DNA of 64,000 nt from Streptacidiphilus rugosus AM-16 (GTDB lineage: Bacteria > Actinomycetota > Actinomycetes > Streptomycetales > Streptomycetaceae): assembly GCF_000744655.1 (NCBI RefSeq), contig NZ_JQMJ01000004.1, forward strand, positions 5,022,001-5,086,000, given 5' to 3'. Under the pieces are notes generated by a model, which had not been told where the DNA came from, made no database searches, and saw nothing but the letters and a program-made list of their open reading frames with translations. Positions 32,816-57,742 of this stretch are shown one piece after another. The translations under genes and the position numbers were made by a program. Position 1 is the first letter of the stretch; every line of letters starts with the position of its first letter.

Positions 32816-32817
32816 TC

Positions 32818-35069: not shown

Positions 35070-35093
35070 CTATAACTGGCCATGCGCTCGGCC
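35070..35093. promoter_or_regulatory. Promoter/operator motif shared with the tatA-AIH region
   Basis: This 24-base element contains a TATAAC hexamer followed by TGGCC-ATGCGCTC-GGCC. It lies 64 bases upstream of the TetR gene start at 35157. An almost identical element (21 of 24 bases) occurs at 56551-56574, in front of tatA and a deiminase gene. A TetR-type operator overlapping a -10 box is the simplest reading. Confidence 0.55.
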
Positions 35094-35156
35094 GAGATCT
35101 TGCGCACGAGGGCGGTTCGCCCCCGGTCCCCGTGACGGCATGGCTAAGGTGGGCGC

Positions 35157-35828
35157 GTGGCTGGAGCAGCAGGCAACGACGTGAACGACAGCGCACCCGT
35201 GGCGGCCCGCACGCCGGTCGGCACGGCGCGGAAGCCCCGGGTGTCGGCCAAGGGCGAGCAGACCCGCGCCCGCCTGATCGCCGCCGCGCGCAGCCTGCTC
35301 GCCGGGGCCGACGACGTGCCCTTCACCACCAGGAACGTCGCCGCCCTGGCCGGGGTGACCCACGGGATGTGCCACTACCACTTCAAGGACCGCACCGACC
35401 TCATCGTCGCGGTGATCGAGGACATCCGCCCGGAGTGGGTCACCCCCATGGAGAAGGCCGTCGCCGAACCGGGCGACTTCACCGCCCGGGCCGATCGCGT
35501 CGTCGACCTGCTCTCCCACCCCGAGGCCGCCGACCTCGCCCGGATGCACTCCGCGCTGCACTGGTTCTCGCTGACCGACGAACGGGTGCGCGAATCCCTG
35601 GAAGCCGAGTACGCCCGCTGGCGCGCCTGCTTCGTCGACCTGTTCCGGGTGCTGTCCACCGAACGTGAGGGCGGGGTCGACGCACTCACCCTCGGCGAGG
35701 CGCTGGCCGCGGCCGCCGACGGTCTCGCCGCCATCCAGTCCCTCGGCTCCGACGTCGACGCCCGGGCCATCATCCGCGCCCTCGTCCTCGGCCTGGCCAC
35801 CGGCGCCGACCGGCTCTCCGACGGCTGA
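35157..35828 (+). CDS. TetR-family transcriptional regulator
   Basis: A 223-residue regulator with a GTG start. After a 30-residue disordered N-terminus comes a TetR helix-turn-helix: GEQTRARLIAAARSLLAGADDVPFTTRNVAALAGVTHGMCHYHFKDRTDLIVAVI. The C-terminal ligand domain has helices with LARMHSALHWFSLTDERVRESLEAEYARW and a late TLGEALAAAADGLAAIQSLGSDVDARAI dimer region. The promoter carries a palindromic element found again at the tat/deiminase promoter, so this protein may control its own gene and that region. The MMPL gene ends upstream on the same strand. Confidence 0.88.
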   Translation: MAGAAGNDVNDSAPVAARTPVGTARKPRVSAKGEQTRARLIAAARSLLAGADDVPFTTRNVAALAGVTHGMCHYHFKDRTDLIVAVIEDIRPEWVTPMEKAVAEPGDFTARADRVVDLLSHPEAADLARMHSALHWFSLTDERVRESLEAEYARWRACFVDLFRVLSTEREGGVDALTLGEALAAAADGLAAIQSLGSDVDARAIIRALVLGLATGADRLSDG

Positions 35829-41173: not shown

Positions 41174-41377
41174 GGCGCCCCGATCGGCAGGCAGAGCGGT
41201 TTTCAAGGCTTCGACGAATTATGTCGCTTTTGTTCCGCCTGCTCCCGGTCCCTCGGCCGTCCGGGCGAGCCCGGCCGCCCCTCACCATGAGCCCTGACCA
41301 GCACTTCCCTGGTTCCCGCTCGGGTGGGCCCGCCCTCGGTACCCCACGCACCGGGGACAGGCCCACCGGTTCGGGCC

Positions 41378-43169: not shown

Positions 43170-44020
43170 CGGTCCCTCCTGGCGACCTGGTCGGCCCAGC
43201 GCTCGCCGACGACGTTGAAGGCGACGACCGTCAGCACGATCGCGACGCAGGGCAGGATCGCGGAGAGCGGGTATCCGGCCTGGATCGCGCTCTCACCGTC
43301 GAAGACCATCCGGCCCCAGTCGGGAATCAGCGCCGGGACGCCGAGACCGAGGAAGGAGAGTCCGGCCAGGTCGATCAGGGCGTAGCCGAAGTTGATGGTG
43401 GACTGCGCCAGGATCACCGGCGCGATGTTGGGCAGCACGTGGCGCAGACAGATCTGCGGCCCGGAGTGGCCCTGCACGCGGTACGCCTCGACGTAGGGGC
43501 GTTCCCGCTCGGCCAGCACCAGCGAGCGGGTGAGCCGGCTGACATAGGGCAGGTAGGCCACACCGAGCGCGATGACCGGGGCGGTCAGGCCCTCCCCGTA
43601 GACGGAGACGATCAGCAGGGCCAGCAGCAGGCCGGGGAAGGCGAAGACCAGCTCGGTGCTGCGCGAGAGCAGCGAGTCGAGCCAGCCTCCGCGCCAGCCG
43701 GCCGCGACGCCGACCACGACGCCGGCGATCGTGGAGAAGACCACCACGCCCAGCGGGCCGAGCAGCGAGGTGCGGGCGCCGGTGATCAGCCGCGACGCGG
43801 TGTCGCGTCCGGAGCCGTCGACGCCGAGGGGGTGGGCGGCGGAGGGTCCGGCCAGCGCGTTGCCGAGGTCCACGGCGTTGGGGTCGTGCGGGGAGAGCCA
43901 CGGCGTGAACAGGGCGAGCACCACGACGAGCCCGAGGAAGCCCAGACAGAGCAGGTACCGCCAGGAGCGGTCGGTCCTGACGCGGGCGAGGCCCGGTCGG
44001 CGGACGACGGTGAGGGTCAT
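43166..44020 (-). CDS. Oligopeptide/nickel-type ABC transporter permease (DppC-like)
   Basis: A 284-residue membrane protein. The N-terminal domain HPLGVDGSGRDTASRLITGARTSL is the typical OppC_N segment, followed by five or six helices and the EAA loop (ERPYVEAYRVQGHSGPQICLRHVLPNI). The ATG at 44020 overlaps the stop of the DppB-like gene. The longer frame further upstream is antisense-like coding and was not used. Confidence 0.9.
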   Translation of the reverse strand: MTLTVVRRPGLARVRTDRSWRYLLCLGFLGLVVVLALFTPWLSPHDPNAVDLGNALAGPSAAHPLGVDGSGRDTASRLITGARTSLLGPLGVVVFSTIAGVVVGVAAGWRGGWLDSLLSRSTELVFAFPGLLLALLIVSVYGEGLTAPVIALGVAYLPYVSRLTRSLVLAERERPYVEAYRVQGHSGPQICLRHVLPNIAPVILAQSTINFGYALIDLAGLSFLGLGVPALIPDWGRMVFDGESAIQAGYPLSAILPCVAIVLTVVAFNVVGERWADQVARRDR

Positions 44021-44976
44021 GCCGCCGCTCCTCTCGTCCCGAGGGTGATCCGCGGGTCGACCAGCGGGAGCACGAGGTCGACCACGAGGTTGACGATCAT
44101 GAACATTCCGACAACGATCAGCGAGATGGCCTGCACGACCGGGAAGTCCTTCGTGGTCGTCGACAGGTCGAGCAACTGCCCGATGCCGTTGACGCTGAAG
44201 GCCGTCTCGACCAGGACGGTGCAGATGAGCAGGGTGGAGACGATCAGGCCGCCCATGGTGAGCACGGTGCCGAGGGTGTTGCGGAACACGTGACGGTGGA
44301 TCACCTGCCGCTCCGGCACCCCCCTGCTGCGGGCCACGGTGACGTGCTCGTGGCCCATGGCCTCCAGCATGGTGCTGCGGGTGACCCGGGCGAGCATGCC
44401 GATCAGGTACAGCGCCAGGGCGATCGCGGGGAGGGTGAGATGCCAGAGCATCTGGACGAACCCGGTGCCGCTGCCGCTGCTGGGGAACCAGCCGAGCTTG
44501 ACGGAGAACAGGCCCTGCAGCAGCACCGCCGCCACGAAGGACGGGGTGCCGACCGCGAACGTGGTCGCCAGCAGGATCGAGGTGTCCGTGGCGCCGCCGC
44601 GGACCGCGCCGACCCAGCCCAGCACCAGGCCGAGGACCACGACCAGGATCAGCGCCATCGCCACCAGCAGCAGCGTGCTGGGCAGTCGGGACGCGAGCAG
44701 CGTGGACACCGGTGTGCGGTACTCGATGGACCGGCCGAAGTCCCCGTGCAGTACCTGGCCGAGCCAGCGCAGGTACTGCTGCCAGAACGGGTCGTCCAGG
44801 TGGTACTGCTCGTTGATCGCCCGCATCGCCTCGGGGGAGGCGGAGCGGCCCGAGAGCAGGAAGCTCGCCGGGTTGCCCGGAGCCAGGTACAGCGCCCCGA
44901 AGATCACGAAGGAGGCGGCCAGCAGGGTCGCCGCCATCTCCGCGACGCGTCGCAGGGCGAAGCGCAGAAAGGTCAT
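44017..44976 (-). CDS. Oligopeptide/nickel-type ABC transporter permease (DppB-like)
   Basis: A 319-residue membrane protein with six helices. The first is LRFALRRVAEMAATLLAASFVIFGALYLAPG. The periplasmic loop contains the typical LDDPFWQQYLRWLGQVLHGDFGRSI, and the EAA loop is HEHVTVARSRGVPERQVIHRHVFRN. The start at 44976 overlaps the stop of the binding-protein gene (ATGA). It forms the channel with the DppC-like subunit. Confidence 0.91.
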   Translation of the reverse strand: MTFLRFALRRVAEMAATLLAASFVIFGALYLAPGNPASFLLSGRSASPEAMRAINEQYHLDDPFWQQYLRWLGQVLHGDFGRSIEYRTPVSTLLASRLPSTLLLVAMALILVVVLGLVLGWVGAVRGGATDTSILLATTFAVGTPSFVAAVLLQGLFSVKLGWFPSSGSGTGFVQMLWHLTLPAIALALYLIGMLARVTRSTMLEAMGHEHVTVARSRGVPERQVIHRHVFRNTLGTVLTMGGLIVSTLLICTVLVETAFSVNGIGQLLDLSTTTKDFPVVQAISLIVVGMFMIVNLVVDLVLPLVDPRITLGTRGAAA

Positions 44977-46652
44977 CTCGCGGCTCCGACATCGGCGGCC
45001 CACGGGTAGTACAGGTAGGAGATGGTGGTGGGCGCGCCGGTGATCCGCTTGTTCATGAACACCGCCGTGGGCCACTCGGCCGCCGGGATCCACAGGTTCG
45101 CCCTGACGGCCATCTGCTGCAGCTCGGCCTCGATCGCCATCCGCTGCGCCGGGTCGTCGGTCGCGACGGCCTGCTCGACGAGCCTGTCGTACGCGGGGTC
45201 GCTGTAGCCGGGGTAGTTCTGGTAGTTGCCGGTCTCGAAGTTGGTGAGCAGGTCCATCGGGTCGGTGATGGACAGGTAGTACGTCTCGGGGAACATGTCG
45301 ATCCCCTCACGTGCCTTCGGGTCGGTGAACAGCGCCGAGAAGGCGTCCGGCGCGATGGTCTTCACCTTGACGTTCAGACCGATCTCGGTGCCGGCCGACT
45401 GCACGGCGGTGGCCATCAGCGAGACGTCCTGGCCGATGGCGCTGGTGGCGACGGTCACGGTCTTGCCCGTCGCCCCGGCCTCCTTGATCAGCTCCTTGGC
45501 CTTGGCCAGGTCGGGCGTGGTGGAGGGCAGGGTGTCGAAGGCCGCCTTGAGGGTCTCCGGATTGGCCCCTGCCCAGGCGGCCCGGTCGGTGAGCGCGTTG
45601 GTGACCCTGCCGTTGCCGGCCAGTCCCTGCTTGACGAAGCCGGCCCGGTCCAGGGCCAGCGAGAGCGCCTGCCGCACGCGGGCGTCGCCGAGCGCGCCCT
45701 TCATGCTGGTGATGTTGACGTTGACGGTGCTGAGGCTCTCGCCGAACCAGAGCGTGCCCACGCCGCTCTTCTGCAGCCGCTGGTAGCTCTCGGTCGGGAT
45801 CAGGTAGCCGCCGTCGACCGCGCCGGTGAGCATCGCGTTGGTGCGCGCCGAGGGGTCGGTCAGGAACTCGAAGGTGACCTTGCCGGACTTGGCCGGCGTG
45901 CCCCAGTAGTCGGCGAAGCGGTCCAGCTCCAACGACTGGCCCTTGTTCCACGCGCCGAGCTTGAACGGCCCGGTGCAGTCCACGCTCGCGCTGCCCCAGT
46001 TCGCACCCGCCGCCTTGATGCCCTTCTCGCTGGCCACCACGCCCGCGGCCGTGGCCATGTACTGCGGGAAGACCGCGTCAGGCCGCTTCAGCTTCACGGT
46101 GACCTGCAACGGGCCGGTCCTGGTGATCGAGCCGACGTTCTGGAAGACGCCGCCCCAGGCCGCGCCGACCTTCGGGTCCATCTGCCGGCCGAGGCTGTAG
46201 ACCACGTCGTCGGCGGTCATCACGCCGCCGTCGTGGAAGTGCACGCCGGGGCGCAGGTCGTAGACCCAGGTGGTCGGGTCGGGGTGCGAGGCCCGCTGCG
46301 CGAGGCCGGGGACCTCCTTGAGCTGCGGCGTCCACTTCATCAGGCTCTCGCAGACGTTGGAGAGGATGGTGTTCGACGGGTAGTCGAAGGCCATCGCGTA
46401 GTCCAGCGTGAGCGGTTCGGCGTAGGAGGCCCAGGTGAAGCCGGAGATGTCGCCCGCGGCGACGGGCGTCCCCGCCGAGAGCTTGAAGGCGTCGGCGTTG
46501 CCGCCACCGGTGGCGGGCGGTCCGGAGCAGGCCGCCACCAGGCCGAAGGCGGCCGCGGCGGCGCAGGCGAGGCCGAGCGGGCCGGAAGAGCCGTGACGGC
46601 GGGATCTGCGGGCCGGCGCTTCCGATCCCGTGCCGGGCAGGATTCTTGACAT
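44973..46652 (-). CDS. Family 5 extracellular solute-binding lipoprotein
   Basis: A 559-residue binding protein. The N-terminus is basic, followed by a hydrophobic stretch ending in the lipobox LVAAC (Cys42). The mature part has the family 5 pattern: LTLDYAMAFDYPSNTILSNVCESLMKW, the peptide-binding segment TTWVYDLRPGVHFHDGGVMTADDVVYSL, and the C-terminal LWIPAAEWPTAVFMNKRI. Family 5 proteins bind peptides, nickel chelates, opines or small amines. Lying between deiminase genes, this system may import a guanidino compound or the nickel that urease needs. Both are inferences. The ATG has an AAAGAGAG sequence upstream. Confidence 0.9.
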   Translation of the reverse strand: MSRILPGTGSEAPARRSRRHGSSGPLGLACAAAAAFGLVAACSGPPATGGGNADAFKLSAGTPVAAGDISGFTWASYAEPLTLDYAMAFDYPSNTILSNVCESLMKWTPQLKEVPGLAQRASHPDPTTWVYDLRPGVHFHDGGVMTADDVVYSLGRQMDPKVGAAWGGVFQNVGSITRTGPLQVTVKLKRPDAVFPQYMATAAGVVASEKGIKAAGANWGSASVDCTGPFKLGAWNKGQSLELDRFADYWGTPAKSGKVTFEFLTDPSARTNAMLTGAVDGGYLIPTESYQRLQKSGVGTLWFGESLSTVNVNITSMKGALGDARVRQALSLALDRAGFVKQGLAGNGRVTNALTDRAAWAGANPETLKAAFDTLPSTTPDLAKAKELIKEAGATGKTVTVATSAIGQDVSLMATAVQSAGTEIGLNVKVKTIAPDAFSALFTDPKAREGIDMFPETYYLSITDPMDLLTNFETGNYQNYPGYSDPAYDRLVEQAVATDDPAQRMAIEAELQQMAVRANLWIPAAEWPTAVFMNKRITGAPTTISYLYYPWAADVGAAR

Positions 46653-46725
46653 CGGTGCTCTCTTTCGTGCGCGGGCGGGCCTGCGCGGGGAGGGTGCGAA
46701 AGGCTGAGTCAGCGATCAGAGCGGG

Positions 46726-46756
46726 CCGGGGTCGGGGCCGTGGGGCCCGACCCCGG
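46726..46756. terminator. Hairpin after the cytoplasmic agmatine deiminase gene
   Basis: Eleven-base perfect arms at 46726-46736 and 46746-46756 with a nine-base loop stand 10 bases beyond the deiminase stop and 74 bases before the binding-protein start. This separates the deiminase transcript from the ABC transporter operon. Confidence 0.65.
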
Positions 46757-46765
46757 TGGGAGGGG

Positions 46766-47779
46766 TCAGCCGGCCGCGAAGGCCCGGGGCACCTGCTGGG
46801 TGATGCAGTGGACGCCGCCGCCGCCGAAGGCGATCACGCGGGAGCGGACGCCGACGACCTTGCGCCCGGGCAGCGCGGCCGCGAGCACGGCGAGCGCCTC
46901 CTCGTCCTGCGGGACGTCGGCGGTCGGGACCACGACGCCGCCGTTGGCGATGTAGAAGTTCAGGTAGCCGACCTCGGTGTGCTTGCCCTCGACGTCGACG
47001 AAGGCGCTCTGCGGCAGGTCGATGATCTCCAGCGCCCGGCCCTGCGCGTCGGTGGCGGCCTCCAGCACCGCGCGGTTGACCTTCATCCGCTCGAAGTCGG
47101 GGTGCTCCGGGTCGCTCGGGAGCTGGATGACGACCTTGCCCGGCGCCACGAACGCGCAGACGCCGTCGACGTGCCCGTCGGTCTCGGTGTCGAGCAGTCC
47201 GCCGTAGGGCAGCCAGATCACCTTGGTCACGCCGAGCCGCGCCTTGAGCTCGTCCTCGATCTGCTCCTGGCTCATGCCCGGGTTGCGGTTCGGGTTGAGC
47301 AGGCACTGCTCCGTGGTGATCAGCGTGCCCTCGCCGTCGACGGTGATCGCGCCGCCCTCGAGGATCATCGACGACTCGATGCGCTCCACGCCGAGGCGCT
47401 CCAGCAGCAGGGCGGAGATCCTGTCGTCGGTGTCCCAGGGGAAGTGCTTCTCACCCCAGGAGTTGAAGCGGAAGTCCACGCCGGCGCGCTCGCCCTGCGG
47501 ACCGAGCACGAAGATCGGGCCGGAGTCGCGGAACCAGGAGTCGTCGATCGGCAGTTCCACGACCTCGACGCCCTCCCCGCACAGGGCGCGGGCCCCGTCG
47601 CCCTGGCCAGGAACCGCGACCATGGTCACCGGCTCGAACTCGGCGATGGCGTTGGCGACCTGCGCGTACTCGCGCCGGGCCTCGTCCAGCGCCTCCTGGC
47701 CCCACAGCTCGGCCCTGGTCGGCCAGGCCATCAGGCAGCGCTCGTGCTCGGTCCACTCGGCAGGCATACGCAAAGTCAT
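46766..47779 (-). CDS. aguA: Agmatine deiminase, cytoplasmic type (AIH-2)
   Basis: A 337-residue enzyme without signal peptide, starting MTLRMPAEWTEHERCLMAWP as in classical bacterial and plant agmatine deiminases. It should convert agmatine to N-carbamoylputrescine and ammonia. Motifs: DDSWFRDSGPIFVLG, the glutamate loop LEGGAITVDGEG, DGHVDGVCAF with the catalytic histidine, and GGGGVHCITQQVP with Cys325. Of the five paralogues here it is closest to the textbook form. No N-carbamoylputrescine amidase gene is in the window. AAGGAAAGAG precedes the ATG. A promoter with a TTGACTGAA operator lies 246 bases upstream. Confidence 0.92.
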   Translation of the reverse strand: MTLRMPAEWTEHERCLMAWPTRAELWGQEALDEARREYAQVANAIAEFEPVTMVAVPGQGDGARALCGEGVEVVELPIDDSWFRDSGPIFVLGPQGERAGVDFRFNSWGEKHFPWDTDDRISALLLERLGVERIESSMILEGGAITVDGEGTLITTEQCLLNPNRNPGMSQEQIEDELKARLGVTKVIWLPYGGLLDTETDGHVDGVCAFVAPGKVVIQLPSDPEHPDFERMKVNRAVLEAATDAQGRALEIIDLPQSAFVDVEGKHTEVGYLNFYIANGGVVVPTADVPQDEEALAVLAAALPGRKVVGVRSRVIAFGGGGVHCITQQVPRAFAAG

Positions 47780-48004
47780 GAGGGCTCTTTCCTTGTGAAA
47801 GTCATGCGTCGGTCTCTCCCGACCGGAGAGCGCCCGGCGCTCCCGGCACGCCCGGCGGCGGGACGCAGCGCGCGTCCCCGTCGGTGGACGTCCCTTCGGG
47901 GGAGTCGCTCCCCACGGGCCTCGGGCCTGGGCGTGCAGGCGGCGTGGGTGTGGACGCCGGTTTCCGTTGCCCGCTGCACGGCGGCAGCGGTGGTGTCCCG
48001 AATC

Positions 48005-48034
48005 TTGCACCGAACTGAAACTTCAGTCAATACT
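48005..48034. promoter_or_regulatory. Operator A in the divergent promoter of AIH-2 and a TetR gene
   Basis: The palindrome ACTGAA-AC-TTCAGT (48014-48027) lies within the 316-base gap 47780-48095, which holds no gene. Toward the right, TTGCAC (48005-48010) and AATACT (48029-48034) form a promoter with an 18-base spacer. Toward the left, TTGACT overlaps one arm, with CAAGAT 17 bases on. The same half sites recur at three other promoters in this locus. Confidence 0.7.
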
Positions 48035-48095
48035 TGGCGACCGGGACCCCACCCGCATCCGACGTCTGCCGAATCCGCCCCCGCGGGAGTGTGCC

Positions 48096-48665
48096 GTGTC
48101 CGACCGCCGTACCGAGATCCTCCGCGCCGCCACCCGCGTCATCGCACGTCGGGGCGTGCGCGGACTGCGCGTGGCCGAGCTCGCCGCCGAGGCCGGCGTC
48201 TCGGTCGCCCTGATCTACTACCACTTCGACGACCGTTCGGGGATCCTGCGCCGAACCCTGGAGTTCATCGTGGACCGGGCCGAGCGGTACACCGCCGCGA
48301 GCGAGGACGAGGACCCCGGCGATCCGCGCTCCGAACTGGAGCGGGTCCTCATGCTCGAACTCCAGGACACCCCCGAGGTGCGCGAGAACAGCACCGCCTG
48401 GGGCGAGTTGCGGGCCAGCGCCGTCTTCGAGCCCGAGCTGCGCGAGGACCTGGCCAAGGCCACGCTGACCTGGGTGCACGAGACCGCCGAACTCCTCGGC
48501 CGGGCCGACCCCGGCGGGACCGCGCCCGCCCATGCGGCGGCCGCCGAGCGGCTGACCGCCCTGCTCGAGGGGCTGAGCCAGCGCTGGCACAGCGGCTCGC
48601 TCCCCCTGGAGCACGCCCGGCGCCTGCTCAGCGAGGCGATCGAGGTGGAACTGGAACGCGGGTGA
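48096..48665 (+). CDS. TetR-family regulator of the deiminase/urease locus (copy 1)
   Basis: A 189-residue TetR protein. The DNA-binding domain is TEILRAATRVIARRGVRGLRVAELAAEAGVSVALIYYHFDDRSGILRRTLEFI. Residues of the recognition helix (GVSVALIYYHF) are nearly the same in the second TetR at 54443-55021, and the ligand domain shares PEVRENSTAWGELRA with it. The two are therefore recent paralogues that probably see similar operators. GTG at 48096 with GGGAG upstream is the likely start. It is the first gene of a rightward run to ureC and has operator A at its promoter. Confidence 0.9.
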   Translation: MSDRRTEILRAATRVIARRGVRGLRVAELAAEAGVSVALIYYHFDDRSGILRRTLEFIVDRAERYTAASEDEDPGDPRSELERVLMLELQDTPEVRENSTAWGELRASAVFEPELREDLAKATLTWVHETAELLGRADPGGTAPAHAAAAERLTALLEGLSQRWHSGSLPLEHARRLLSEAIEVELERG

Positions 48666-48699
48666 CCTGCCCGCAGTCGCCCCACAGGGAGGCCGAACA

Positions 48700-48993
48700 G
48701 TGTTCTTCGACATAGGCGTGTTCAAGCTGGCGGCGCTCGTGGTGCTGGCCGTCCTGATCTTCGGCCCGGACAAGCTGCCGAAGCTGATCACCGAGGCCGT
48801 CGGCTTCGTCCGCAGGGTGCGGCGGTTCGCCGACTCCGCGAAGCAGGAGGTCCGCGACGGACTGGGTCCCGAGTTCCAGGACCTGGAGTTCGAGGACCTG
48901 AACCCGAAGACCTTCGTCCGCAAGCAGCTGGCCGCCCACGGCGACGACCTCGGCCTGGCGGAGATCAAGGACGCTGCTCGGCGGCTTGACTGA
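48700..48993 (+). CDS. tatB: TatB-type twin-arginine translocase subunit
   Basis: A 97-residue protein with one N-terminal membrane helix (MFFDIGVFKLAALVVLAVLIFGPDKLP) followed by an amphipathic helix and an acidic tail. The segment RFADSAKQEVRDGLGPEFQDLEFEDLNPKTFVRKQL matches Streptomyces TatB and distinguishes it from TatA. TatB recognises twin-arginine signal peptides together with TatC. It starts with GTG behind a GGGAGG site. Its stop lies inside operator B for the next gene. It is placed next to genes for twin-arginine exported deiminases and 8 kb from tatA-tatC. Confidence 0.9.
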   Translation: MFFDIGVFKLAALVVLAVLIFGPDKLPKLITEAVGFVRRVRRFADSAKQEVRDGLGPEFQDLEFEDLNPKTFVRKQLAAHGDDLGLAEIKDAARRLD

Positions 48994-49014
48994 AGTTTCA
49001 GTCAGTGCCAGAGT
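48986..49014. promoter_or_regulatory. Operator B and promoter of AIH-3, possibly leaderless
   Basis: The perfect palindrome TGACTGAA-GT-TTCAGTCA occupies 48987-49004. TTGACT (48986-48991) serves as a -35 box and CAGAGT (49009-49014) as -10 with a 17-base spacer. The transcription start would then fall at or within one or two bases of the AIH-3 ATG (49022), suggesting a leaderless mRNA; no ribosome binding site is present. Confidence 0.7.
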
Positions 49015-49021
49015 GATCCTC

Positions 49022-50044
49022 ATGAACCAACCCTCCTGGACGGGCGCACGGGTCGGTCCGGACGACGCGCCGCACTCACGCACCTGGATGTCGTGGCCCT
49101 CGGCCCGCTCGATCTGGGGACGCCACCTGGGCGGGGTCCAGCAGGACATCGCCCTGATCGCCCGGACCGTGGCGCAGTTCGAACCGGTGGTGATGTGCGC
49201 GGCCGACGAGGCCGCCGCCCACGCCGCCCGGTCCGCCTGCGGACCCACGGTCACGGTGACCGCGCTGATCCCGACCGACGACCTGTGGATGCGCGACACC
49301 GCGCCGGTCTTCCGGCGCGACCCACAGGGCCGGCTGGAGGCCGTCGGGCTGAACTTCAACGGCTGGGGCCGCAAGCAGGCCCACGGCAGGGACGCCGAGG
49401 TCGCCCGCGCGATCGCCGGGCGGGAGGGTCTCCGCTTCCACGCCGCCGCCTTCGTCGGCGAGGCCGGGGCTGTCGAGACCGACGGCGACGGCAACGTGAT
49501 GGCCACCGAGAGCAGCCTGGTCAACAGGAACCGCAACCGCGGCATGAGCCGCGACGAGATCGAGCGGGCGGTCCTGAGCGCCTACGGCGCCACCAGGATG
49601 ATCTGGGTGCCGGGGGTCGAGGGACGTGACATCACCGACGACCACATCGACGTGACCGCGCGCTTCGTCCGGCCGGGCGTGGTGATGGTCCAGGTCCCAC
49701 CGGCGGAGCGCAACGACATCTGGGCCCGCGACGCCCGCGAGCAGTTCGCGCTGCTGGCCCGGGCCACCGACGCCAGGGGTCGGCAGCTGCAGGTGATCCG
49801 GATGGAGGGCCCGGACACCGTCCGGTCCAGGCGCTCCACCTTCGTCGACTCCTACCTCAACTTCCACGTCGTCAACGGTGCGGTGATCACCGCCCAGTTC
49901 GGCGACCCGGCCAAGGACGTCGCGGCCCACCGCACCCTGGCCGCGGCCTTCCCCGGACGCCTGGTCGTCCAGCTCGACGTCGACCGCCTGATGGCGGGCG
50001 GCGGCGGCATCCACTGCTCCACGATGCACCAGCCGCTCCCCTAG
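49022..50044 (+). CDS. Agmatine deiminase family protein without signal peptide (AIH-3)
   Basis: A 340-residue deiminase-family protein, apparently cytoplasmic (MNQPSWTGARVGPDDAPHSRTWMSWP). The cysteine motif GGGGIHCSTMHQP (Cys332), the histidine motif ITDDHIDVTARF and the acidic motif LWMRDTAPVF are present. Two positions differ from the classical enzyme: GP of RDxGP is AP, and the glutamate loop reads GEAGAVETDG rather than EGG. Its closest look-alike here is AIH-5 (both have TWMxWP and [10 protein letters not shown]). The ATG at 49022 is taken instead of the GTG-type start at 48986, because the latter lies inside operator B. Substrate may not be agmatine. Confidence 0.88.
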   Translation: MNQPSWTGARVGPDDAPHSRTWMSWPSARSIWGRHLGGVQQDIALIARTVAQFEPVVMCAADEAAAHAARSACGPTVTVTALIPTDDLWMRDTAPVFRRDPQGRLEAVGLNFNGWGRKQAHGRDAEVARAIAGREGLRFHAAAFVGEAGAVETDGDGNVMATESSLVNRNRNRGMSRDEIERAVLSAYGATRMIWVPGVEGRDITDDHIDVTARFVRPGVVMVQVPPAERNDIWARDAREQFALLARATDARGRQLQVIRMEGPDTVRSRRSTFVDSYLNFHVVNGAVITAQFGDPAKDVAAHRTLAAAFPGRLVVQLDVDRLMAGGGGIHCSTMHQPLP

Positions 50045-50097
50045 GGCCGGCCCGACCCTCCGCCCGCACGCCCGCACGTCGCTCCTGGAGTCCTGCC

Positions 50098-51276
50098 ATG
50101 CCGACCCACCTTTCCCGCCGCGCCATGCTGCAGTCCCTGGCCGGAGCCGGGCTGCTCGCGCTCGGCGCGGCCGCCTGCTCCTCCTCCGTCCCCGCGGGCG
50201 AGTCCGACGGGAGTGGCGCGGCCGGGGCCGCCGACTCGCCCGGTCCGGCGACGAGGCCCGCCGGCCGCGTGCTCGGCGCCGAGTGGGAGAAGCACGCGCG
50301 CACCTTCATGTCCTGGCCCGCCTCCGACGGCATCTGGGGTGACCAGCTCTCCGGCGTCCGGCAGGACATCGCCGGTCTGGCCCGCGCGATCGCCGGCTAC
50401 GAGCCGGTCGTACTCTTCGCCCGGCCCGGGCAGGCGGACGACGCGCAGGCGGCGGTCGGCGACAACGTCGAGGTCGTGCCGATGCCGGTGGACGACCTGT
50501 GGGCCCGCGACACCTGCCCCGTCTTCGTGCACGACCGCGGCACGCTGAAGGGCGTCGACTTCAACTTCAACGGCTGGGGCGAGAAGCAGAAGGAGCACGG
50601 CGACGACTCCGCGCTCGCGGCCGCTCTGCTCGACAAGTACCGGATCCCGCGGATCGAGACCCCGTTGGTCGGCGAGGGCGGCGCGTTCGAGACGGACGGC
50701 CAGGGCACCCTGCTGGTCACGGAGAGCTCCGTGGTCAACGACAACCGCAATCCCGGCATGAGCCGGGACGACGTCGAGGCCGAGCTGATGAAGGCGCTGA
50801 GCGTCACGAAGGTGATCTGGTTGGCCGGGGTGCGCGGCAAGGACATCACCGACGCCCACGTCGACTGCCTGGCGCGCTTCGTCGCGCCCGGGGTGGTGCT
50901 GCTCGACACGCCCTTCCCCGGAGCGCCCGCCGACGTGTGGTCGCAAGCCTCCGCGCAGGCCCGCCAGGTGCTGAAGTCGGCCACGGACGCGCAGGGCAGG
51001 CCGCTGCGGATCATCGACCTGCCCCAGCCCGACCCGGACAGGATCACCGGGCGCGGCGACGCCTTCGTCTCCTCCTACATCAACTTCTATGTCGCCAACG
51101 GGGCCGTCTTCATGCCCAAGTTCGGCGACGACGACGCCGACCGCGCCGCGCAGAAGATCGTCGGCGACCGTTTTCCCGGCCGCGACATCGTCGCCCTGAA
51201 GATCGACAACATCGCCTCGGGCGGCGGCGGGATCCACTGCTCCACCCACGACCAGCCCGGCACCCCCGCAGCCTGA
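50098..51276 (+). CDS. Tat-exported lipoprotein of the agmatine deiminase family (AIH-4)
   Basis: A 392-residue protein with a twin-arginine signal (SRRAMLQSL, RR at 7-8) and lipobox AAAC (Cys27), followed by a Gly/Ala/Ser linker and the deiminase domain from about residue 58. Motifs: LWARDTCPVFV (the usual RDxGP is RDTCP), GEGGAFETDG, ITDAHVDCLARF and GGGGIHCSTHDQP with Cys381. It is very similar in layout to AIH-1. It follows AIH-3 after 53 bases and precedes ureAB by 42, so all are probably on one transcript. Predicted location is the outer face of the membrane. Confidence 0.9.
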   Translation: MPTHLSRRAMLQSLAGAGLLALGAAACSSSVPAGESDGSGAAGAADSPGPATRPAGRVLGAEWEKHARTFMSWPASDGIWGDQLSGVRQDIAGLARAIAGYEPVVLFARPGQADDAQAAVGDNVEVVPMPVDDLWARDTCPVFVHDRGTLKGVDFNFNGWGEKQKEHGDDSALAAALLDKYRIPRIETPLVGEGGAFETDGQGTLLVTESSVVNDNRNPGMSRDDVEAELMKALSVTKVIWLAGVRGKDITDAHVDCLARFVAPGVVLLDTPFPGAPADVWSQASAQARQVLKSATDAQGRPLRIIDLPQPDPDRITGRGDAFVSSYINFYVANGAVFMPKFGDDDADRAAQKIVGDRFPGRDIVALKIDNIASGGGGIHCSTHDQPGTPAA

Positions 51277-51318
51277 TCCGCACCACCCTTCGACCACGGC
51301 CTACCAAGACGAGGCACC

Positions 51319-52023
51319 ATGCGACTGACACCCACCGAACGGGACCGGCTGCTGATATTCACGGCCGCCGAGCTGGCGCGCGCCCGGCGCGCCCGCGGGC
51401 TGCGGCTCAACGTGCCGGAGGCGACCGCGTTGATCGCCGACACGGTCTGCGAGGCGGCCCGTGACGGCCGCAGGCTGGCCGAGGCGATCGAGGCCGGGCG
51501 GACCGTCCTGACGGCGGACGACATCCTGCCGGGGGTCGCGGACATCGTGACCCAGGTGCAGGTGGAGGCGGTGTTCGAGGACGGCACCCGGCTGTGCGTC
51601 ATCGACGCCCCCTTCGGCGACGCAGCCTCACTGGGTGACGAGGCGCCGGGTGCGGCACTGCCCGGGGACGGCGCGGGCTACGAGCCGGCCGAACCGGTCC
51701 TGCGGGTGCCGGTGCGCAACACCTCGGCGGTCCCTGTCAGTGTGACCTCGCACTTCCACTTCTTCGAGGCGAATCCGCGGCTCGCGTTCGACCGTGCGGC
51801 AGCCTTCGGGATGCGGCTGGCGGTCCCGGCCGGCTCCTCGGTCCGCTTCGACGCGGGCGCGGTCGTCGAGATCGGCCTGCTGCCCATCGGCGGCGACCGC
51901 ATCGTGATCGGCTTCGCCGGACTGGTCGACGGCCCCCTCGACGCCCCCGGCGCCCGCGACGCCGCCCTGGCCAAGGCCACAGCCTGCGGCTACCTGACCA
52001 ACTTTGAGGAGGCGGGACTGTGA
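51319..52023 (+). CDS. ureAB: Fused urease gamma/beta subunit
   Basis: A 234-residue fusion. Residues 1-100 match urease gamma (MRLTPTERDRLLIFTAAELARARRARGLRLNVPEATALI, then ARDGRRLAEAIEAGRTVLTADDILPGVADIVTQVQVEAVF). Residues 120-234 match urease beta (PVRNTSAVPVSVTSHFHFFEANPRLAFDRAAAFGMRL, then IGLLPIGGDRIVIGFAG). Gamma/beta fusions occur in some bacteria, Helicobacter included. The stop overlaps the ureC start (GTGA). Nickel is bound by the alpha subunit, so this part is structural. No ureD, ureE, ureF or ureG lies in the window. Confidence 0.92.
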   Translation: MRLTPTERDRLLIFTAAELARARRARGLRLNVPEATALIADTVCEAARDGRRLAEAIEAGRTVLTADDILPGVADIVTQVQVEAVFEDGTRLCVIDAPFGDAASLGDEAPGAALPGDGAGYEPAEPVLRVPVRNTSAVPVSVTSHFHFFEANPRLAFDRAAAFGMRLAVPAGSSVRFDAGAVVEIGLLPIGGDRIVIGFAGLVDGPLDAPGARDAALAKATACGYLTNFEEAGL

Positions 52024-53783
52024 CCGCGAGCAAGTTCGACTACCAGGGCTGCCACGGCCGCCCCGGCGCCTCCGTCGGTTCGACGGTCAGCGCGCACGAC
52101 TACATGGCGGTGCACGGGCCGCGGGCCGGGGACCGGATCCGGCTGGGCGACTCCGGACTGATCATCCGCATCGAAACCGACTCCCAACACCCCGGCGACG
52201 AGTTCCTGGCCGGCTTCGGCAAAACCGCCCGCGACGGCCTCAACCTCAAAGCCACCACCGTGAGGGAGACCTGCGACCTCGTCATCTCCAACGTCACCCT
52301 CATCGACGCCGTCCAAGGCATCCACAAAACCAGCATCGGCATCCGCGAAGGCCGCATCCACGCCATCGGCCGCGCCGGCAACCCCGACACCCTCGACCAC
52401 ATCGACATCATCGTCGGCACCGGCACCACCATCATCTCCGGCGAAGGCCTCATCGCCACCGCCGGCGCCATCGACACCCACGTCCACCTCCTCTCCCCCC
52501 GCATCATGGAAGCCTCCCTCGCCTCCGGCGTCACCACCATCATCGGCCAGGAATTCGGCCCCGTCTGGGGCGTCGGCGTCAACTCCCCCTGGGCCCTACG
52601 CCACGCCTTCAACGCCTTCGACGCCTGGCCCGTCAACATCGGCTTCCTCGCCCGCGGCTCCTCCTCCGACCCCGGCCCCCTCATCGAAGCCCTCGCCGAA
52701 GGCGGCGCCTCCGGCTTCAAAGTCCACGAAGACATGGGCGCCCACACCCGCGCCCTCGACACCGCCCTGCGCGTCGCCGAAGACCACGACGTCCAAGTCG
52801 CCCTCCACACCGACGGCCTCAACGAATGCCTCTCCGTCCAGGACACCCTCGCCGTCCTGGAAGGCCGCACCATCCACGCCTTCCACATCGAAGGCTGCGG
52901 CGGCGGACACGTCCCCAACGTCCTCAAAATGGCCGGCGTCCCCAACGTCATCGGCTCCTCCACCAACCCCACCCTCCCCTACGGCCGCGACGCCCTCGGC
53001 GAACACTTCGGCATGATCGTCTCCGCCCACGACCTCAAAACCGACCTCCCCGGCGACGCCGCCATGGCCCGCGACCGCATCCGCGCCGGCACCATGGGCG
53101 CCGAAGACGTCCTCCACGACCTCGGCGTCATCGGCATCACCAGCAGCGACGCCCAAGGCATGGGCCGCGCCGGCGAAACCGTCCGCCGCACCTTCGCCAT
53201 GGCCGGAAAAATGAAACACGAACTCGGCCCCCTCGACGGCCACGACAGCTACGGCGACACCCAAGCAGGCGACGACAACGAACGCGTCCTGCGCTACCTC
53301 GCCAAACTCACCATCAACCCCGCCATCGCCCACGGCCTCGCCCACGAAATCGGCTCCATCGAAACCGGGAAACTCGCCGACATCGTCCTGTGGCGCCCCG
53401 ACCACTTCGGCGCCAAACCCCAACTCGTCCTCAAATCCGGCTTCCCCGCCTACGGCGTCACCGGCGACCCCAACGCCTCCACCGACCGCTGCGAACCCCT
53501 CGTCCTCGGCCCCCAATTCGGCGCCCACGGCACCACCCCCGCCGACATCTCCGTCGCCTTCGTCGCCACCGCCGCCCTCCACAACGGCGACCACCTCCCC
53601 ACCCGCCGCCGCCGCGTCCCCGTCCAACACACCCGCGGCATCGGCCCCAAGGACATGCACCGCAACCACCGCCTCGGCACCGTCGACGTCAACCCCACCA
53701 CCGGCCTCGTCACCCTCGACGGAGACCCCCTCCACTCCCACCCCGCCGACACCGTCACCCTCAGCCGCCTCTACTTCCTCTGA
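52020..53783 (+). CDS. ureC: Urease alpha subunit-like amidohydrolase with altered active-site flap
   Basis: A 587-residue amidohydrolase clearly related to urease alpha. All nickel ligands align: His154 and His156 (DTHVHLL), Lys234 and His236 (FKVHED), His263 (ALHTDGLNE), His289 (AFHIEG) and Asp377 (TSSDAQG). The flap catalytic histidine is kept (His337) but the neighbouring cysteine, Cys319 in Klebsiella numbering, is Ala336. Ala363 becomes Gly380. The loop after VTTIIG (EFGPVWGVGVNSPWAL) bears little likeness to the usual GTGPAAGT-ATTCTPG. From codon 51 on, codon use changes to AAA and GAA for Lys and Glu. It may be a urease with a changed pocket or an enzyme for another ureido or guanidino substrate. 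Confidence 0.9.
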   Translation: MTASKFDYQGCHGRPGASVGSTVSAHDYMAVHGPRAGDRIRLGDSGLIIRIETDSQHPGDEFLAGFGKTARDGLNLKATTVRETCDLVISNVTLIDAVQGIHKTSIGIREGRIHAIGRAGNPDTLDHIDIIVGTGTTIISGEGLIATAGAIDTHVHLLSPRIMEASLASGVTTIIGQEFGPVWGVGVNSPWALRHAFNAFDAWPVNIGFLARGSSSDPGPLIEALAEGGASGFKVHEDMGAHTRALDTALRVAEDHDVQVALHTDGLNECLSVQDTLAVLEGRTIHAFHIEGCGGGHVPNVLKMAGVPNVIGSSTNPTLPYGRDALGEHFGMIVSAHDLKTDLPGDAAMARDRIRAGTMGAEDVLHDLGVIGITSSDAQGMGRAGETVRRTFAMAGKMKHELGPLDGHDSYGDTQAGDDNERVLRYLAKLTINPAIAHGLAHEIGSIETGKLADIVLWRPDHFGAKPQLVLKSGFPAYGVTGDPNASTDRCEPLVLGPQFGAHGTTPADISVAFVATAALHNGDHLPTRRRRVPVQHTRGIGPKDMHRNHRLGTVDVNPTTGLVTLDGDPLHSHPADTVTLSRLYFL

Positions 53784-53849
53784 CCGCCCACGGACGACGC
53801 GACGGGCGCACGGCGATTGCCGTGCGCCCGTCGCGTCGTCCGTGGGCGG
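53784..53849. terminator. 31-bp perfect hairpin between ureC and the anti-sigma-like gene
   Basis: Arms 53784-53814 and 53819-53849 are perfect inverted copies with a GATT loop, beginning at the first base after the ureC stop. The leftward gene on the other side ends at 53858, so the hairpin can serve both strands. Such long perfect arms are unusual for a terminator. Confidence 0.85.
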
Positions 53850-53857
53850 GCGCCGGA

Positions 53858-54280
53858 TCAGGCTGCGGTCATGAGCGCCCAGACGGCCTTGCCGCGGGCA
53901 CCGGCCGGGATCACGCCCCAGGCCTCGGCCAGAGCCTCGACCAGCAGGATGCCCCTTCCGTTGGTGCTGGTCGGGCTCTCGGCCCGGCGCTCCACCTGGG
54001 CGGGCGAGCGGTCCGCGACCGCGATGAGCAGGCGTCCGGCGCGCAGTTCGACGACAACGGACGGGTCGCAGCCGTGCACCAGGGCGTTGGTCAGCAGCTC
54101 GGTGAGGAGCAGGCACGGGGAGTCGTGGTCCAGCCGCACGGCGGTGAGCGCGTCGCGCAGAAGCCGCCGGACGCCCCCGACCCCGGCGGGCGTCGCCTCG
54201 GGACGCACGTCGAAGCGGAAGGTCGGCTGCTCGTCGTCGGGGCGGAAGATGCCCGACAGGGACGGCTGAGGGACTGGCAT
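53858..54280 (-). CDS. RsbW-like ATP-binding protein (anti-sigma factor type)
   Basis: A 140-residue protein of the GHKL ATPase fold as in RsbW/SpoIIAB-type serine kinases. N-box-like LLLTELLTNALVHG, G1-like LIAVADRSPAQVERR and G2-like NGRGILLVEALAEAWGV are visible. Streptomyces has many such single-domain proteins, and most have no proven sigma factor partner. No sigma factor gene is adjacent. GGAGG stands before the ATG at 54280. Its promoter contains operator C, so it appears to belong to the same regulon as the deiminases. Confidence 0.85.
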   Translation of the reverse strand: MPVPQPSLSGIFRPDDEQPTFRFDVRPEATPAGVGGVRRLLRDALTAVRLDHDSPCLLLTELLTNALVHGCDPSVVVELRAGRLLIAVADRSPAQVERRAESPTSTNGRGILLVEALAEAWGVIPAGARGKAVWALMTAA

Positions 54281-54360
54281 CAGGGGCCTCCATCGGCTGC
54301 CTGGCCGCGCCTCCCCCGGCGCGATGTCGTCGCCTGCGGCGACATGGCTTCGGCCTCTCC

Positions 54361-54389
54361 AGTGTCGCACCAACTAAAAATTCAGTCAA
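54361..54389 (-). promoter_or_regulatory. Operator C and promoter of the anti-sigma-like gene
   Basis: On the minus strand TTGACT (54384-54389) and GACACT (54361-54366) are separated by 17 bases, with the palindrome ACTGAA-TT-TTTAGT (one mismatch between arms) overlapping the -35 box exactly as in operators A and B. Transcription would run leftward to the gene at 54280. Confidence 0.65.
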
Positions 54390-54442
54390 TGCGTACGACC
54401 CGCCGGATCCCACGCGTTCCACGGTGCCCGGCCCGGCCCGGC

Positions 54443-55021
54443 CTATCCGGCCAGTCGCGCCAGTTCGGCGTCGACGGCGCCGACCACCAGGGCGCGCGCG
54501 TGCACCAGCGGCAGGCTGCCGCTGAGCCAGCGGCTGCTCAGGCCCTCGACCAGCGCGGTCAGTCGCTCGGCGGACATCGCCAGCGCGCCGGCCCCCGCCG
54601 TCGGGTGGACCCGGCCGAGCAGCTCGGCGATGTCCTGGACCCAGACGAGCGTGGACTTGGCCACGTCCTCCTGGAGGTCGGTCTCGAAGACGGCACAGGC
54701 CCTGAGCTCGCCCCAGGCGGTGCTGTTCTCGCGCACCTCGGGGACGTCCTGGAACTCCAGCAGCAGCGTGTGCTCCAGCTCGCCGCGGGCGTCGAGCGGC
54801 GGCGCCGCCGGGTCCCGCTCGGCGGTGTAGAGGTCCGCGCGGTCGTTGATGAACTCCAGGGTGGCGCGCAGGATGCCCGTGCGGTTCTTGAAGTGGTAGT
54901 AGATCAGCGCCGTCGAGACGCCGGCCTCGGCCGCGAGCTCCTCGACCCGGAGACCCCGCACCCCACGGCGCGCGATGACCCGCGCGGCGGCTTCCAGTAG
55001 CATCGTCCTGCGGTCGGCCAC
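54443..55021 (-). CDS. TetR-family regulator of the deiminase/urease locus (copy 2)
   Basis: A 192-residue TetR protein, closely related along its whole length to the one at 48096-48665: RRTMLLEAAARVIARRGVRGLRVEELAAEAGVSTALIYYHFKNRTGILRATLEFI, then PEVRENSTAWGELRACAVFE and a shared GLSSRWLSGSLPLVHAR region. The start is GTG at 55021 with GAGAGGAAG upstream. Operator D, 44 bases before the start, suggests autoregulation. It lies downstream of AIH-5 on the same strand, 180 bases away. Confidence 0.9.
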   Translation of the reverse strand: MADRRTMLLEAAARVIARRGVRGLRVEELAAEAGVSTALIYYHFKNRTGILRATLEFINDRADLYTAERDPAAPPLDARGELEHTLLLEFQDVPEVRENSTAWGELRACAVFETDLQEDVAKSTLVWVQDIAELLGRVHPTAGAGALAMSAERLTALVEGLSSRWLSGSLPLVHARALVVGAVDAELARLAG

Positions 55022-55064
55022 TGTGCGGCTTCCTCTCGGTCGCGGGCCCTGGTCAGTCCCCTCT

Positions 55065-55080
55065 GACTGAAATTATAGTC
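55065..55080. promoter_or_regulatory. Operator D upstream of the second TetR gene
   Basis: GACTGAA-AT-TATAGTC has one mismatch between its 7-base arms and matches operators A-C. Read leftward, it contains a consensus TATAAT -10 box, so a bound repressor would cover the promoter of the TetR gene that starts at 55021. No good -35 box is seen. Confidence 0.65.
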
Positions 55081-55201
55081 TGCACACGACGGGGATCTCC
55101 AGGGTGTCCGCCCACCGCTCACATGGTGAACGCCCGGCACGGGCCGGAACCGCCGTTCCGACGCGCGCACCGGGCGCCTCACGATGTTTCGGCCGCTCTC
55201 C

Positions 55202-56497
55202 TTACGGAGCCGGCTGCGGCTGGGTGACGCAGTGGATGCCACCGCCGCCGAGGCCGATGTAGTCGATGTTGATCTGCTCGACGACCCGACCGGGGAACAT
55301 CCGGGTGAGCACCGCCTTGGCGTTGGCGTCGCCGGTGGCGTCGCCGAACTGGGCCGAGATCACCGCGCCGTTGCAGACGTAGTAGTTGGCGTAGGAGTCG
55401 ACGAAGCTGCTGCTGGTCTGGCGGATGTAGTTGTAGTCGGGCGCCTGCAGCTTGGTGACCTGCATCGCGGCGCCCTTGGCGTTGGTGGACGCAGACAGCA
55501 TGTTGTACTGCTGCTGCTCGTCGTTGGACCAGATGTCCGAGGGGTCCGCCGGGTTCGGCGTCTGGACGAGGGCGGTGCCGGCGCCCACGAAGCGCGAGGT
55601 CGCGTCGACGTGGTCGTTGGTGATGTCCTGGCCGGAGATGCCGGTGAACCAGATCACCTTCGAGGCCCCGTAGGCGGCGCACATGGCGGCCTCCAGCTGG
55701 GCCTGCGTCATGTTGGGGTTGCGCTTGGGGTCGATGATGCTGCTCTTGGTCGCCATGAGCGTGCCGAGGCCGTCGTTCTCGATCGCGCCGCCCTCGCTGA
55801 CGAACCCGGCGGCCGTGAACGGCACCCCGGCGTAGGCGGCGACGGCAGCCGCGACGTGGGCGTCGTTGGTGACCGTCTGCTGGCCGCCCCAGCCGTTGAA
55901 GTTGAGGCCCACCGCGTCGACGCCGCCTGCGCCGTTGGTACGGAAGACCGGGCCGGAGTCCCGCATCCAGCAGTCGTTGACCGGGATCGAGGTGATCACG
56001 GTGACGTTGGCGTTGGTGCAGGCCGCCCGCGCGGACGCGGCACTGGCCGGGTTCGCGCACATGATGACCGGCTCGTACTTCGCGATCGTGTTCGCCACCC
56101 GGGCGATGTTCGACTGGATCTGCGCGACCGACGGTGACGATCCGCCCCGCCGCCCACCGCTGCCGCCGGTCCAGATGGTCGGGTCGTCCGGCCAGGCCAT
56201 CCAGGTGCAGGTGTGCCTGGCGCTGTCGATCGGCACCACGAACGTTCCGGTCCCACCGCCCGACGGCGTCGGGGAGGGCGTCGGGGTGGGCGAGGAGGAG
56301 CCGCAGGGGTCGGGGGTGGTGGCCGCCCGGGCGGCCGGGGAGCCGGCGCTGTTCGCCGCCCAGACCACGCCGACCGTCGTCAGCCCCGCGATCGCCAGAA
56401 AGCTGCGCCGGTCCACCGGTCGACGGTGCTTCGCCGCAGGCTGTGGCTCCTCGGCCCGCTGCTCCACCGGCTCCACGGGCTCCGCGTGATCGTTCAT
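55202..56497 (-). CDS. Tat-exported agmatine deiminase family protein (AIH-5)
   Basis: A 431-residue protein with an extended N-terminus and a twin-arginine signal ([13 protein letters not shown] at 30-31), with a likely signal peptidase I site after residue 58 (AARA). A Ser/Pro/Thr linker follows, then the deiminase domain: [46 protein letters not shown] and [13 protein letters not shown] with Cys423. Unlike AIH-1 and AIH-4 it has no lipobox and should be released from the membrane. It shares a divergent promoter region with tatA-tatC, the export machinery it needs. An insertion of about 10 residues after the TIW segment (GGSGGRRGG) is unusual. Confidence 0.9.
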
Positions 56498-56547: not shown

Positions 56548-56576
56548 AAGCTATAACTGACCATGCGCTCGGTCAA
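56548..56576. promoter_or_regulatory. Divergent promoter/operator between AIH-5 and tatA
   Basis: Rightward, TATAAC at 56552-56557 can serve as the -10 of tatA. Leftward, TTGACC (56571-56576) and TAGCTT (56548-56553) form a promoter for AIH-5 with a 17-base spacer. Between them lies TGACC-ATGCGCTC-GGTCA, a perfect 5-base-arm palindrome. The 24 bases from 56551 match those at 35070-35093 before a TetR gene, with three differences. Confidence 0.65.
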
Positions 56577-56633: not shown

Positions 56634-56879
56634 ATGCTTGAGAACCGCGGACTTGAGATCGTCGTCATCGCCGTCGTCGTGCTGCTGCTCTTCGGCGCGA
56701 AGCGCCTGCCCGACTCCGCCCGCGCGCTGGGCAAGTCCCTGCGCATCCTCAAGTCCGAGGTCGGCGCGATGAAGACGGAGCCGGCCGGCGTCGAGGCGAC
56801 GGCGTCGGAGGCCGACCCGGTGCTCCTGCCCTCGCGGCCCATCACGGCCGCTCCCGGCGAGGCCACGACCGCACGGTGA
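56634..56879 (+). CDS. tatA: TatA-type twin-arginine translocase subunit
   Basis: An 81-residue protein: a membrane helix ([25 protein letters not shown]), the [24 protein letters not shown] hinge and amphipathic helix typical of TatA, then a flexible tail. TatA oligomers form the pore for folded proteins. The ATG at 56634 is chosen because the TatA-like sequence begins there. The stop overlaps the tatC start (GTGA). A housekeeping tatA is expected elsewhere in the genome, so this is probably a second copy. Confidence 0.9.
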
Positions 56880-57742
56880 CCGGAGCCTCCACCGCCGCCC
56901 CTCCTGCGACCGGCCGGGGACGCGACACCGGGACCATGCAACTGACGGACCACCTGCGGGAGTTGCGTCACCGCCTGCTGATCTCCTGCGCCGCGCTGCT
57001 GGTGACCACCGTGGTCGGCTGGATCGTCCACGGGCACGTGGTCGACCTGCTCACCGGTCCGGCCTGCGGCATCAAGGGCGTCCACGGCGTGGGCGGGCCC
57101 ACCCCGCAGTGTCCCAACGGGCTGCTGGTCAACCAGGGCGTCCTCGCCCCGCTGTCGCTGAGCTTCAAGGTCTCCATGACCGTCGGCCTGGTGCTGGCCT
57201 GCCCGGTGTGGAGCTACCAGCTCTGGGCCTTCGTCGCCCCGGGGCTGCACCGTCGGGAGAAGCGGTACGGCCTCGGCTTCACCGCCGCGGCCGCACCGCT
57301 CTTCTGCGCCGGCGGCACGCTCGCCTACTGGGTGTTCCCCAAGGCCCTGGGTGTGCTGGCCGGGTTCAACCCCGGCTCCTTCGCCCTGGCCCTGCCCGGC
57401 GACCAGTTCCTGGACTTCTTCGTCCGCCTGGTGCTGGTCTTCGGGCTCTCCTTCGAGATGCCCCTGCTGCTGGTCGCGCTCAACTTCGTCGGCGTGCTCA
57501 GCGCGGCGCGGCTGCGCGGGTGGTGGCGCGGCATCGTGTTCGCGATCTTCGTGCTCTCCGCCGTCGCCACACCCACCGGCGATCCCCTCACCATGACCGT
57601 GCTCGCGCTGCCGATCTGCCTGCTCTTCTTCGCCGCCCTCGGCGTCGTCAGCCTGCACGACCTGCGCAGCGGTCGGGCCCCGCGCACAGGGGAAGCACGG
57701 GGCCCGTCCGGGACGGAGGTCGAGCGGGGGGATGACGCCTGA
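56876..57742 (+). CDS. tatC: TatC twin-arginine translocase subunit
   Basis: A 288-residue membrane protein with six helices. The N-terminal motif [17 protein letters not shown] and the first loop region are those that bind the twin-arginine signal. [14 protein letters not shown] and [21 protein letters not shown] with the conserved F-E of helix 4 follow, and [22 protein letters not shown] makes up helices 5-6. Length and order are normal. It is coupled to tatA and, with tatB at 48700, completes a translocon inside the deiminase locus. Confidence 0.93.

Follow-up and report, generated by a model that had tools for sequence, protein, structure and literature searches.

TetR/AcrR autorepressors whose operator is shared by the regulator gene and a divergent target are well known, tetR/tetA and TtgR/ttgABC being examples, and the ScbR-type gamma-butyrolactone receptors are TetR-type regulators of streptomycetes. 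The housekeeping promoters of actinobacteria follow the consensus TTGACN at -35 and TAnnnT at -10, about 17 bp apart. Here we analyzed a stretch of 64,000 nucleotides from Streptacidiphilus rugosus AM-16 (the window), in which a 24-base element had been noticed both before the TetR gene at 35157 (TetR-1) and before a tatA-like gene 21 kb away. Comparison with related genomes makes it very probable that this element is the operator of TetR-1, which would repress its own gene and AIH genes and, less surely, tatA(C), and that the regulator/target pair has been split in this genome. A literature search, with most subscription journals outside its coverage, found no title describing this regulon; in PMC1550398 the matching letters belong to a PCR primer for S. 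coelicolor tatA and are unrelated to an operator. The features under discussion are the following.

35077..35094, + strand: putative operator copy A (site A), TGGCCATGCGCTCGGCCG, with 0 mismatches to TGRCCAWGCGCTYGGYCR; putative autoregulatory site
35157..35828, + strand: TetR-1, TetR-family regulator by TetR_N profile and predicted fold; proposed repressor
54443..55021, - strand: TetR-2, rival regulator adjoining AIH-5 (TetR_N 52.9 bits)
55202..56497, - strand: AIH-5, PAD_porph deiminase with a twin-arginine signal (PF04371 300.3 bits, cut-off 25); proposed target
56548..56553, - strand: putative -10 TAGCTT of the leftward AIH-5 promoter (motif match), 17 bp from the -35
56558..56575, + strand: putative operator copy B (site B), TGACCATGCGCTCGGTCA, matched by both pattern and matrix
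56571..56576, - strand: putative -35 TTGACC of the leftward AIH-5 promoter (motif match), overlapping the right arm of the operator
56634..56879, + strand: tatA-like gene (PF02416 55.7 bits), possible second target of site B
56876..57742, + strand: tatC, downstream of tatA (PF00902 207.5 bits)
G000:C4:5226904 (G000 is the own genome): site C, third copy, before AIH-I

The two 24-mers at 35070-35093 and 56551-56574 are indeed alike, with identity at 22 of 24 positions and not at the 21 counted in the original prediction. Its other measurements hold: a palindrome TGACC-N8-GGTCA lies at 56558-56575, and the spacing of about 85 bases is 87 from 35070 to the GTG of TetR-1 at 35157 and 83 from 56551 to the ATG of tatA at 56634; the gap between site A and the TetR-1 start is 62 bases. 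The dyad-symmetric core of the element is the 18-bp palindrome TGRCCAWGCGCTCGGTCA. A 25-mer pattern spanning both copies, and built from copies A and B themselves, matched the window twice at up to 3 mismatches and never in 100 dinucleotide shuffles. A fairer count is that 59 direct 24-mer pairs in the window agree at 21 positions at least; with 54% GC, the A/B pair is tied with two others as the least GC-rich of them, and seven of the next nine pairs by GC, among the best 25 lowest-GC pairs of the 59, join two AIH paralogues. With a scoring matrix made of 41 sites, all from other genomes, sites B and A ranked first and second in the window (47.1 and 21.3), site B scored 14.1 on the other strand, and the next place reached -7.6 against 0.9 for the best of 20 triplet-shuffled windows. 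Site A is thus the weakest copy and its right arm is degenerate.

In the own genome (9,002,860 bases, 4 contigs), three places matched at up to 3 mismatches, all of them fitting the degenerate pattern without a mismatch, and the reversed pattern matched nowhere in these four contigs. The third place, site C, lies 141 kb past the window end and 170 kb from site A. Another own-genome scan, at up to 2 mismatches, gave 61+42 matches versus 18+10 with the reversed pattern, so that weak own-genome sites are indistinguishable from background; three places had 1 mismatch. The loose palindrome TGACCNNGCGCNNGGTCA was discarded as too general, since it matches 192 of 394 family genomes. Palindromes in the same frame recur in the family scan, mostly in genus g14 and, among the matches listed, as TGACCTCGCGCGAGGTCA and TGACCCAGCGCTGGGTCA, which are perhaps operators of other regulators.

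TetR-1 scored 23.4 bits with TetR_N, just below the cut-off of 24, and two of three relatives scanned were above it (L018 27.7, L025 29.9) and one below (L020 19.6). Its predicted fold (pLDDT 89.9, 30-sequence alignment) matched TetR structures, 3e7q_A among them (Z 18.6, rmsd 3.4, 194 residues aligned), and the top Foldseek rows for the model were transcriptional regulators, many titled TetR family. TetR-1 therefore belongs to the TetR/AcrR family by an all-helical TetR fold, its N-terminal HTH being borderline by profile and supported by the fold; the predicted helix at 69-75 reads HGMCHYH. A sequence search of the PDB gave no relative close enough to name TetR-1 (best E 1e-07, profile positions 31-98), and the plasmid collection gave no match at E<=1e-30.

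The distribution of the element follows that of TetR-1. At up to 3 mismatches, the pattern was found in 12 of 100 relatives and TetR-1 (E<=1e-30) in 10 of them; G005 and G032 have a single match each, with 3 mismatches, a broken right arm and an overlap with a called ORF, and the remaining ten genomes, in which the element is intact, are precisely those that carry TetR-1. Seven of them are Streptacidiphilus and the other three belong to two further genera, and AIH-5 relatives (E<=1e-60) occur in the same seven of 14 Streptacidiphilus genomes. The conservation in related strains that the original prediction had called for is thus seen as a coincidence of intact site and TetR-1 in 10 of 10 genomes, counted with a pattern that would overlook more diverged sites and among genomes that are not independent because of shared descent.

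A second set consisted of 56 named loci from a TetR-1 alignment search, 44 of them with TetR-1 orthologues (>150 bits) and 12 with weaker TetR; eight of these loci may coincide with genomes of the 100-relative set. A site was counted if it had at most 1 mismatch, three positions being allowed alternatives, and lay in the 450 bp upstream of the profile match. An autorepressor-type palindrome of this kind stands ahead of the gene's own start in 40 of the 44 orthologous loci, a divergent AIH in 39 and both in 37, and the site in none of the 12 loci with a weaker TetR. Loci from Streptacidiphilus, Streptantibioticus, Kitasatospora and Streptomyces show the site between the TetR-1 orthologue and the divergent AIH, a regulator/target layout from which the window genome departs, the pair being split there. 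The 56 loci, 654,303 bases in all, contain two such sites elsewhere: in L036, some 1.2 kb ahead of TetR-1, and in L038, before a second AIH. In L049, L052 and L065 the site is present, no AIH is seen and the contigs end on that side. In L018 (3053-5040, G003) a GDSL-lipase-like gene, codirectional with TetR-1, stands between the operator and TetR-1.

Four orthologues lack the standard site. In L036 it lies the mentioned 1.2 kb upstream, at the contig end. The recognition helix of L072, from a MAG with the label Microbacterium, is still HGMCHYHF, and the site there is a variant, TTACCAAGCGCTTGGTTA. In L071 (Amycolatopsis), where TetR and the divergent AIH are retained, RSLTHYYF replaces HGMCHYHF and no such site is present; by eye, the intergenic region of this locus (5860-6010) holds a different palindrome and TTGACA-17-TACGGT towards AIH, which makes it a candidate for a natural operator switch. 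In L074 (Streptomyces roseus, 5700-6420) TetR-1 is without an in-frame DNA-binding part and there is no operator; to the eye, the recognition-helix coding seems to be on the other strand, as an inversion would leave it. The absence of the site in L071 and L074 is expected if TetR-1 reads the site. The covariation of helix and operator comes from one case, L071: no second case of the Amycolatopsis type was found among 297 genomes of its family (9 candidates scored in each, E<=1e-45), where the same genome alone matched. The diversity of helices is also limited because the named orthologues were searched with the peptides HGMCHYH and KGEQTRAR. In all, the link between TetR-1 and the element drawn in the original prediction is upheld by the co-occurrence in ten of ten genomes, the site before 40 of 44 orthologues and the changed-helix orthologue without it.

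Among the alternatives, the one that survives best, improbable as we judge it, has TetR-2 bind the site at AIH-5, the likeness to the TetR-1 promoter reflecting another role. In G000, G011 and G009, TetR-2 adjoins AIH-5 or the AIH-5 orthologue; the seven Streptacidiphilus genomes with the site all have TetR-2 (a partial match in G007), and on contig G006:C62 (L228, around 230-260) a variant site just before the TetR-2 gene speaks for some link. The two regulators are alike over 54 residues alone (35%). TetR-2 (E<=1e-40) was found in 15 of 62 relatives scanned, G050 being outside this set, including G026 and the seven site-bearing Streptacidiphilus. However, G039 has the site and TetR-1 with no TetR-2 at E<=1e-40, TetR-2-like genes occur without the site in G014, G016, G063, G065, G066, G067 and G073, and it is TetR-1 itself that the site precedes in 40 of the 44 named loci. 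By these sequence counts, the distribution of TetR-2 fits that of the site less well than TetR-1's does.

Concerning the AIH side, TTGACC stands exactly 17 bp from TAnnnT towards AIH in 45 of 46 distinct sites (47 found minus site A), a motif match to the sigma70-type consensus from which L072, the lone exception, and site A depart. Since this holds at nearly every site, the dyad fills the spacer between the -35 and the -10 of what we take to be the AIH promoter; and because the palindrome sits inside this leftward promoter, binding of TetR should block AIH transcription. AIH-5 accordingly keeps its place as a predicted target. Across the 12 proteins aligned, neither the RR pair nor GGGIHC varies. 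At site A the AIH-side -35 reads TCGGCC and the -10 TAGCAA, with no AIH adjacent; by its letters, the leftward promoter there is decayed, the left arm and centre of the putative operator remaining. A conserved sigma-factor promoter alone, with no specific repressor, would explain the 17-bp arrangement, and we hold this to be quite unlikely: the spacer is conserved with dyad symmetry, varying mainly at three positions of the 18 bp, whereas the middle three bases of the -10 are free to vary (TAGCTT 16, TACCTT 7, TACGTT 6, others), the left arm and centre of site A survive without a good -35 or -10, and the presence of the site goes with the TetR gene.

On the other side of site B, control of tatA by TetR-1 is plausible, as judged from position. 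AIH-II (AIH-5 or its orthologue), operator and tatA are neighbours in G000, G011 and G009, where the operator start precedes the tatA start codon by 76, 41 and 55 bases, respectively; tatC comes after tatA in G000 and G011, and none follows in G009. There are two TatC genes in G000 (the other match at C4:4656191), G004, G006, G009 and G011, and one in G003. No exact site was present within 3.7 kb around the TatC genes of G009:C60, G004:C33 and G006:C62. On the last of these contigs the variant site has 3 mismatches and lies about 930 bases before tatA; tatA/tatC are some 0.9 kb from it, and the contig has no AIH match. The sequence TATAAC, which the original prediction had placed before the core in both copies, does not stand as a shared rightward -10: relatives read TAAAAC, TAGAAC, TATTAC or TATGAC, and its TA and the preceding bases belong to the leftward -10. 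At the sites, no conserved promoter reading rightward into TetR or tatA was recognised.

An RNA stem-loop in the tatA or tetR leader (an attenuator or protein-binding RNA), in place of a DNA operator, is a still more distant prospect than a bare promoter. As read from the sequence, the dyad would allow a stem of 5 bp and a loop of 8 bases on the downstream side of TATAAC, but this stem is short, it has no conserved rightward promoter upstream, and on the AIH side the dyad is conserved even though it lies between the -35 and -10 motifs, where it should escape transcription. That the element is a mobile or dispersed repeat has next to no chance: its three near-identical copies in one genome are just three in 9 Mb, the A/B similarity largely ends at the element and the gene context is the same in other genera, so that the genome-wide motif scan suggested with the original prediction excludes a widespread repeat.

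The explanation that remains, TetR-1 acting at the element, must account for a pair that is not divergent in this genome. The gene at site C, AIH-I, is a Tat-signal PAD_porph deiminase gene missed in the original prediction; it shows 83% identity with the AIH that is divergent from TetR-1 in S. fuscans (L031), with which AIH-5 compares at 72% over 348 columns. AIH-I, the usual left-hand partner of TetR-1, is now 170 kb off, with its own putative operator. The AIH at 39986-41173 in the window shares 78% identity with the AIH that flanks TetR-1 on its other side in L031, so a gene related to the usual right-hand neighbour is still close to TetR-1. Sites A and C have TGGCC as left arm, where site B has TGACC; the common TGGCC is expected if both descend from one site. 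From these comparisons an ancestral divergent TetR/AIH pair seems to have been split here, each half holding an operator. With tblastn, neither a TetR remnant at site C nor an AIH-I remnant near site A gave a credible match (best E 2.7 and 0.37, respectively).

Just before site A, an MMPL transporter on the + strand is split over two frames (32206-33990 and 34043-35014, both matching PF03176), by either a frameshift or an assembly error. The region 39986-56497 holds five PAD_porph genes, an ABC transporter (by eye), two related TetR genes and urease subunit genes (51319-53783), as well as a TatA/B-like gene at its cut-off (48700-48993). Its content suggests a guanidino/urea nitrogen cluster.

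We propose the following mechanism. A TetR-1 dimer on the 18-bp dyad would block RNA polymerase at the AIH genes and, through site A, would repress the TetR-1 gene itself. A ligand would release the repressor; perhaps this is a compound of guanidino or amine type, akin to the substrate of the deiminase, a guess made from the target genes. The ancestral unit would have been AIH-I and TetR on either side of one operator, and its split would have left site A at TetR and site C at AIH-I, with AIH-5 at site B as a paralogous target. With less assurance, tatA(C) at site B would be repressed together with AIH-5. The idea, contained in the original prediction, that TetR-1 represses both itself and AIH-5 is in this way well supported at the level of genome comparison; the third site and the divergent TetR/AIH arrangement usual in relatives had been missed. 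A further reading is a substrate-induced export cassette, in which one TetR operator would switch an exported deiminase and its own extra TatA(C); we regard it as possible, with the balance somewhat against it. If true, export capacity would rise with the enzyme needing it, and, were tatA(C) co-regulated, the idea of a Tat translocase dedicated to a single substrate could be put to the test here.

The locus would provide a defined operator, regulator and targets for Tat-exported PAD_porph deiminases in Streptacidiphilus, Kitasatospora and Streptomyces. The substrate of these enzymes is uncertain, and a repressor whose operator is known would give a handle for finding the inducer and perhaps the substrate. 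It also illustrates how a divergent regulator/target pair may split by rearrangement, its wiring being kept by an operator on each side.

Compared with known systems, AIH-5 has the PAD_porph domain and the GGGIHC motif in common with AguA and the Porphyromonas peptidylarginine deiminase, but its score with the AguA family (TIGR03380) is 223.1 bits for a cut-off of 381.8 and it has a twin-arginine signal. TetR-1 matches the Pfam TetR_C_6 domain of the BetI choline repressors weakly (21.9 bits, cut-off 27), is far from BetI proper (TIGR03384, 23.4 bits against 201.3) and has a different gene context. Its match to NF041196 is likewise weak (33.2 bits versus a cut-off of 150), which places it outside the ScbR-type receptors. 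With tetR/tetA and TtgR/ttgABC it shares the TetR fold with its HTH, the palindrome over the target promoter and, in relatives, the divergent pair. In contrast to those systems, the putative targets here are exported PAD_porph deiminases and one site goes with a Tat gene, the pair is split, the sites are dispersed and the binding is a prediction. The mechanism itself seems ordinary, that of a TetR autorepressor: a switch of the classic kind on genes where it is apparently new.
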